Of a stretch of DNA of 64,000 nucleotides, positions 12,001 to 19,579 are shown piece after piece. Position numbers and translations under genes: made by a program. The notes beneath the pieces were generated by a model, which was not told where the DNA came from, did not search any database, and was given only the letters and a program-made list of their open reading frames with translations. The stretch lies in assembly GCA_030824575.1 (NCBI GenBank), contig JAVBXL010000020.1, positions 1 to 64,000 of the forward strand, written 5' to 3'. How positions within the stretch are numbered: position 1 is the stretch's first letter; every line of letters begins with the position of its first letter. The DNA comes from a bacterium (GTDB lineage Bacteria; Pseudomonadota; Alphaproteobacteria; Sphingomonadales; Sphingomonadaceae).

Positions 12001-12030
12001 AAAAAAAAGGGCCGATCCGAAGATCAGCCC
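12001..12030 (-). terminator. Rho-independent terminator, TTCG tetraloop plus T8
   Basis: GGGCTGATC TTCG GATCGGCCC TTTTTTTT on minus strand. Confidence 0.85.
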
Positions 12031-12135
12031 GAAAAGTTTTAGGAGAGGATGCCTGAAAGGCCCGATCTTATTGCCCGCTCCCGCTTCATGCTGCAAATGC
12101 GAAGGGCGTAAGAGCAATTGCACGATACGCAATCG
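12001..12135 (-). ncRNA. Candidate trans-acting sRNA copy 1 (anti-SD core, UUCG terminator, upstream palindrome)
   Basis: Minus strand: CGATTGC-N7-GCAATTG (12135-12115), N11, TTCGCATTTGC (12103-12093), 31 nt, core GCCTTTCAGGCATCCTCTCCTAAAACTT (12061-12034), hairpin GGGCTGATC-TTCG-GATCGGCCC then T8 (12030-12001). Same architecture as 19452-19579. Confidence 0.75.
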
Positions 12136-19241: not shown

Positions 19242-19451
19242 GGCAGATCCTCTACTGGACATGATATTGGCCTTGATCGGTGGCGTTCGAACGCCCGACC
19301 GGCTGTTTGGACGCAGCCCGATTATCAGGATTGTGGTTAAATTCCAGTGAGCGGATCGCCCGATTCATCGCATTTCCGCGGCTATGGGCGCATGCGGGAT
19401 GGCAAAACGCTACGGCAACAGGGCAGGACGGGGACCGGATCAAGACGAAAA

Positions 19452-19579
19452 AAAAGCCGCCCCGAAGGACGGCCTTGAAGTTTTAGGAGAGGATGCCTGA
19501 AAGGCGGGTTCCTTTTGCGGTGCAGCGCAGAGTGTCGCAAATGCGAAACATGGAGGGACGATTGCGTTTCCTGCAATCG
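19452..19579 (-). ncRNA. Candidate trans-acting sRNA copy 2 (paralogue of 12001-12135)
   Basis: Minus strand: CGATTGC-N7-GCAATCG (19579-19559), N11, TTCGCATTTGC (19547-19537), 31 nt, identical 28-nt core (19505-19478), hairpin GGCCGTCC-TTCG-GGGCGGC with T8. Confidence 0.78.

Follow-up and report, generated by a model that had tools for sequence, protein, structure and literature searches.

Two described systems place a LysR-type regulator next to the gene of the small RNA (sRNA) that it controls. The gene of the LysR regulator GcvA in enterobacteria is divergent from that of the sRNA it activates, the Hfq sRNA GcvB (PMC1557403), and in rhizobia, Agrobacterium and Brucella the LysR regulator LsrB/VtlR is encoded beside the gene of the Hfq sRNA AbcR1, which it activates (PMC8844928). 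For the alpha-r8 siblings SisA-D of Caulobacter crescentus, no common conserved promoter motif was reported (PMC12559287). In Sphingopyxis granuli TFA, SuhB mediates catabolite repression, and SuhB control was described only as growth-rate dependent, with no transcriptional regulator of this repression reported (PMC6563040).

Here we describe a promoter module that precedes both suhB/mmgR (alpha-r8) sRNA genes in a 64,000-nt stretch of DNA from a member of the Sphingomonadaceae (the window). As judged from its sequence, the module is one promoter switch common to this suhB pair and about 80 related RNA genes in the family, and we are all but certain that it is a conserved, functional promoter-operator. 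In our reading it is, with good probability, a LysR-type-activated promoter: a GcvA-like LysR protein would bind it and activate all suhB copies. We found no description of the module or of its LysR gene in the open-access papers examined, and an earlier mention of the upstream motif elsewhere is possible. The protein most likely to work the switch is a previously unrecognised LysR-type regulator, whose gene usually lies beside one of these RNA genes.

Two suhB promoters in the window

The first-pass annotation had claimed that both sRNA genes are preceded, at exactly the same distance, by an inverted repeat and a promoter-like element, and direct reading of the two copies, both on the (-) strand, confirmed this arrangement with identical spacing. 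The palindrome of copy 1, CGATTGC-gtatcgt-GCAATTG (12115..12135), and that of copy 2, CGATTGC-aggaaac-GCAATCG (19559..19579), each with 7-bp arms, are separated by 11 nt from TTCGCATTTGC (12093..12103 and 19537..19547, respectively). The N7 and the 11-nt fillers have diverged between the copies, as had also been noted. The motif as first written was real, but its conserved core turned out to be slightly smaller, namely TTGC-N7-GCAA-N14-TTCGCAYTTGC, which is followed in both copies by 34 nt to TTTCAGGC. When up to 3 mismatches were allowed, the joint 18-base pattern was expected 0.11 times per window, compared to the two occurrences observed, each with 0 mismatches.

Both downstream RNAs matched Rfam family RF00519 above its gathering cut-off of 41 bits, copy 1 at 12068-11994 with 58.2 bits and a fold z of -3.4, and copy 2 at 19512-19440 with 46.7 bits and a fold z of -3.1. 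With the G of GCCTTTCAGG as the first base and the last T of the T-run as the end, the predicted sRNA is 61 nt long in copy 1 (12001..12061, (-)) and 58 nt in copy 2 (19448..19505, (-), placed by the Rfam match and the fold), and the same distance is about 60 nt in Sphingopyxis sequences. SuhB of S. granuli TFA is reported to be 61 nt long (PMC6563040). We infer that transcription starts at the G of GCCTTTCAGG, which would place TTGC at -35 to -32, the -10 element at -12 to -7 and the centre of the palindrome at -64. The putative -10 element of copy 1 is CAATAA (12068..12073), located 17 nt from TTGCAG and assigned by its position and by the gCAtA that the family consensus shows there; that of copy 2 is CAAAAG (19512..19517), assigned by position.

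T-N11-A symmetry is a hallmark of LysR recognition sites, and the LysR recognition box is usually centred near -65. TTGC-N7-GCAA is a T-N11-A inverted repeat, and its centre at -64 from the putative start fits a LysR-regulated promoter. The palindrome would then be a LysR-type recognition box, with its core at 12132-12118 in copy 1 (centre 12125, about -64) and its centre at 19569 in copy 2 (about -64), and the TTGC of TTCGCATTTGC (12096-12093 and 19540-19537) would serve as the -35 element, fused to TTCGCA as the proposed activator-proximal contact.

The module in the genome and across the family

RF00519 matched eight places in the genome, and seven of the eight, the bona fide suhB copies, have a common mature sequence, TTTCAGGCATCCTCTCC. 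The palindrome is present in each of them, either exact or with one mismatch in its 8-base core, and so is TTCGCAYTTGC; the spacing between the two elements is 14 nt in six copies and 13 nt in the copy on contig C94, and the distance from TTCGCAYTTGC to TTTCAGGC is 34 nt in every one. Some of the copies outside the window could derive from a second strain, because the assembly is rated 8.9% contaminated. The eighth match (C110:14327-14404, L013; 41.0 bits) differs in its core (TCCTCCCTGAACC), lacks the module and was treated as a different alpha-r8-like lineage rather than as bona fide suhB. This second lineage (TCCTCCCTGAACCTTGGCC) was also seen without the module at four other Sphingomonadaceae loci (L144, L147, L151 and L152).

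The genome-wide search indicated that the palindrome is not randomly scattered, since its perfect 7-bp-arm form is nearly confined to suhB promoters, which account for four of its five occurrences (reversed control, 0). The fifth, CGATTGC-N7-GCAATCG at C168:26739-26759 (L004), lies upstream of a DUF4170 gene. It lacks TTCGCAYTTGC, resembles a hairpin-like repeat directly after the stop codon of the preceding gene and has a perfect core in only 6 of 16 same-genus genomes; the DUF4170 gene was therefore rejected as a regulon member and is probably unrelated.

Across 61 Sphingomonadaceae genomes, sampled at one per genus, RF00519 was present in 52. A set of 76 distinct sphingomonad suhB promoters from ~50 genera gave the consensus TTGCa.....tGCAac......t.....tTTCGCAcTTGCa.aA, plus a -10-like gCAtA. 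The columns of TTCGCA and TTGC were near-invariant, with information near 2 bits each, and those of the palindrome carried 1.0-1.5 bits. At the set spacing, the palindrome was retained with at least 7/8 bases in 65 of the 76 promoters. When the register was shifted as a control, with positions taken relative to an anchor set 55 nt before CCTCTCC, at least 7/8 bases were recovered in 57 promoters at offset 0, in 8 at offset -1 (some of these being copies that have one more base downstream) and in 0-4 at other offsets, nearly all of them giving 0-2. A few suhB copies had no palindrome (L023, L024, L029), and two Sphingopyxis suhB promoters carry the module.

Searched as a 40-mer pattern, the exact module was present in 196 of 301 Sphingomonadaceae genomes, compared to 0 for the reversed pattern, and a search through 85,000 prokaryote species gave at least 118 stretches with the exact module. 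The titles of 80 of the matches listed were nearly all those of sphingomonads, the remainder being broad labels (Alphaproteobacteria, Proteobacteria). Outside the family, RF00519 matched in 61 of 113 genomes, and TTGC-N7-GCAA was absent from the 29 best suhB promoters examined there. The recurrence of the module at every bona fide suhB gene in this genome and throughout the family supports the earlier proposal that a dedicated regulator site and a promoter element co-regulate these RNAs.

A LysR-type candidate regulator and its alternatives

No LysR gene adjoins either suhB copy in the window. Elsewhere in the genome, a LysR gene (C94:42276-43151) is divergent from the suhB copy at C94:42017-42092. 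Its product contains the HTH_1 (PF00126, 2.3e-17) and LysR_substrate (PF03466, 7.7e-31) domains, and its best-scoring model is GcvA, at 201.5 bits, below the 288 bits of the GcvA equivalog (NF008352). In 20 of the 61 sampled family genomes, this one with its C94 copy included, the gene lies next to suhB and is transcribed divergently from it, and the usual order where the two adjoin places suhB between the LysR gene and a CDC48-type ATPase gene. In the Erythrobacter-like clade, a CoA-transferase gene occupies the place of the LysR gene, which is found elsewhere.

With cut-offs of at least 370 bits for the LysR ortholog and at least 40 bits for suhB, the ortholog was found in 48/48 genomes with suhB and in 0/13 of the others. 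In ~28 of the 48, about half, the LysR gene is unlinked to suhB, yet retained. The Fisher p of 1.5e-13 for this co-occurrence is overstated, because the pattern follows phylogeny and needs only about 2 independent changes of label on a 30-genome FtsK tree. Among the 113 genomes outside Sphingomonadaceae, none gave a match to this LysR protein at 1e-50. One unlinked LysR gene (L099) has a perfect box of its own 27 nt upstream of its start, and no clear box was seen upstream of the unlinked LysR genes in about 10 examined.

A second arrangement was found in genus g6, where three species carry the exact module (L373, L374, L375), directly followed by a diverged alpha-r8-like RNA with the core CGATCCTCCCCAAGGATT. 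These RNAs scored 35.3 and 29.0 bits against RF00519 in two of the species, and no match was reported in the third. A LysR homolog with 36% identity and the same MRRLPP start adjoins the module RNA in all three, oriented tail to tail (convergent) with it, unlike the divergent arrangement elsewhere. The link between LysR and the module thus held in a test that could have failed. The sampled g6 member, G005, has an alpha-r8-like RNA without the module and gave no LysR match at 1e-50, a threshold that so diverged a homolog could escape.

We consider the LysR protein very probably the regulator of the module, and it is likely to activate rather than repress suhB, because the palindrome lies at -64 and a contact block adjoins the -35 element. 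In the mechanism that we propose, the GcvA-like regulator encoded on C94 would bind its recognition box, TTGC-N7-GCAA, whose centre is at about -64. It would contact TTCGCA, which directly precedes the -35 TTGC, as the site of activation, and would recruit RNA polymerase to this promoter, whose -10 is weak; all dispersed suhB copies, the window pair included, would be switched on together.

Alternatively, the module could be a real operator and promoter that is served by another protein encoded elsewhere, of the TetR, GntR, Lrp or response-regulator type, with the adjacency of LysR reflecting old gene order. Inverted repeats of such size are bound by many regulator families, and the LysR gene is unlinked in half of the genomes. 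Nevertheless, the geometry of arms and spacer, the centre at -64 and the divergently oriented gene are all as expected for LysR. The gene also persists in genomes in which it is unlinked, is missing from those without suhB and lies next to the RNA once more in the second arrangement of g6, which makes a different regulator unlikely. It is very doubtful that TTCGCAYTTGC and the -10 element form an alternative-sigma promoter, with the common control coming from the sigma factor and the palindrome acting as a minor modulator: TTCGCAYTTGC is indeed the most conserved block, above the palindrome, but TTGC-N17-CANANA fits a weak vegetative promoter and the palindrome is conserved at a fixed phase.

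AniA/PhaR and NtrC, the two proteins suggested by the first-pass annotation, did not fit the architecture of the palindrome. NtrC sites have the form TGC-N11-GCA and act on sigma-54 promoters. The palindrome has GC-N7-GC, and inspection by eye found no sigma-54 GG-N10-GC (-24/-12), the -24 place being CC in copy 1 and lacking GG in copy 2. AniA/PhaR at the palindrome would be a repressor of suhB under low PHB, by analogy with S. meliloti, where AniA binds and represses the mmgR promoter (PMC12542648), and PhaR is encoded in this genome. We regard this reading as highly improbable, since the palindrome is GC-N7-GC and the S. meliloti PhaR motif, NYGCRNYGCRN, has a GC-N3-GC core (PMC12542648), and since the PhaR-like core YGCRNYGCR lies elsewhere: in 22 of the 76 family promoters it takes a constant position between -35 and -10, and it also occurs in many outgroup promoters that have no palindrome. 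In the window this core is represented by TGCGCTGCA in copy 2 (19521..19529, (-)) and has no match in copy 1. PhaR may act via this separate downstream motif near the -10 element in some suhB copies; it is plausible that repression by PhaR came first and that the LysR box was added in the sphingomonads.

Other transcription units and known systems

Among the matches listed, the 118 stretches contain 122 exact modules, of which 103 are followed by suhB and the other 19 by other plausible transcription units. Eight of the 19 precede an ORF for a 26-27-residue hydrophobic protein, four precede UrcA-size secreted proteins, those tested matching TIGR04433, and the last seven stand before an RNA-like unit that has CTCCTCTCTCCC as well as a strong terminator. 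The CU-rich RNA-like unit matched no Rfam family, and its loci (L165:292, L184:3530, L215:5052, L230, L233:2687, L268 and L280) belong largely to Sphingorhabdus-type genomes. The hydrophobic microproteins, encoded at L176:2510, L179:4126(-), L216:2085, L217:220(-), L282:2199 and L296:1024 (e.g. MRSIANHMLPIIIAAGVSGLMFTATLF), had no Pfam or NCBIfam match. UrcA (TIGR04433) secreted proteins were observed behind the module at L170:4726, L190, L193, L282-L285 and L295, often in tandem with a 27-aa ORF.

In the genome studied here, the module occurs three times in a degenerate form, with 3 mismatches and the palindrome perfect, ahead of two near-identical 27-aa ORFs and of a secreted protein of 95 aa; at 3 mismatches the reversed control also gave 3 matches, and these targets are therefore provisional. 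The two microprotein loci, C167:21639 and C189:4369 (sequence MRQAFQGAVLAVAVGVQMLTFYSVLYA), are near-identical and lie on different contigs, of which C189 may belong to a second strain (8.9% contamination). We dismiss as next to impossible that the similarity of the modules is a remnant of recent sRNA gene duplication, not selected as a promoter, because, although the suhB copies are paralogs, N7, N14 and N34 have fully diverged with their lengths kept and the module also stands before unrelated genes (UrcA, the 27-aa proteins and another RNA).

Whether one LysR regulator governs a family-wide regulon of RNAs and microproteins is, in our view, evenly balanced; such a regulon would bring alpha-r8 siblings, the CU-rich sRNA, UrcA proteins and 27-residue single-span microproteins under one rigid 40-bp module and would link carbon-status riboregulation with an envelope response. 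The signal for the LysR protein may be growth rate or carbon status, as suggested by analogy with S. granuli (PMC6563040). The candidate LysR protein, together with a defined box, turns the question of how carbon or growth status is sensed and SuhB driven into one that can be tested directly. A single control over multicopy sRNA siblings would extend through a whole bacterial family, and the findings point to microproteins that have been overlooked and a so far undescribed RNA in the same regulon.

The arrangement resembles GcvA-GcvB, in that GcvA is the model that gives the LysR protein its highest score (201.5 bits) and the LysR gene is divergent from suhB. It differs in a score under the GcvA cut-off (288 bits), in the sRNA, which is suhB/alpha-r8 instead of GcvB, and in a single regulator that would serve several suhB copies at dispersed sites and whose gene is unlinked in roughly half of the genomes. 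LsrB/VtlR-AbcR1 also has an alphaproteobacterial LysR encoded beside an sRNA gene, but its sRNA belongs to a family other than suhB. MmgR of S. meliloti, which is controlled by AniA/PhaR and NtrC, shares the RF00519 family and, in some sphingomonad copies, the PhaR-like motif near -10, whereas it is a single copy there and the palindrome is absent from the 29 promoters examined outside Sphingomonadaceae. C. crescentus resembles the sphingomonads in having multiple alpha-r8 siblings in one genome, SisA-D, which are reported to lack a common promoter motif (PMC12559287), the opposite of the sphingomonad suhB copies. SuhB of S. granuli TFA is the same sRNA in the same bacterial family, and the module is present in two Sphingopyxis suhB promoters.
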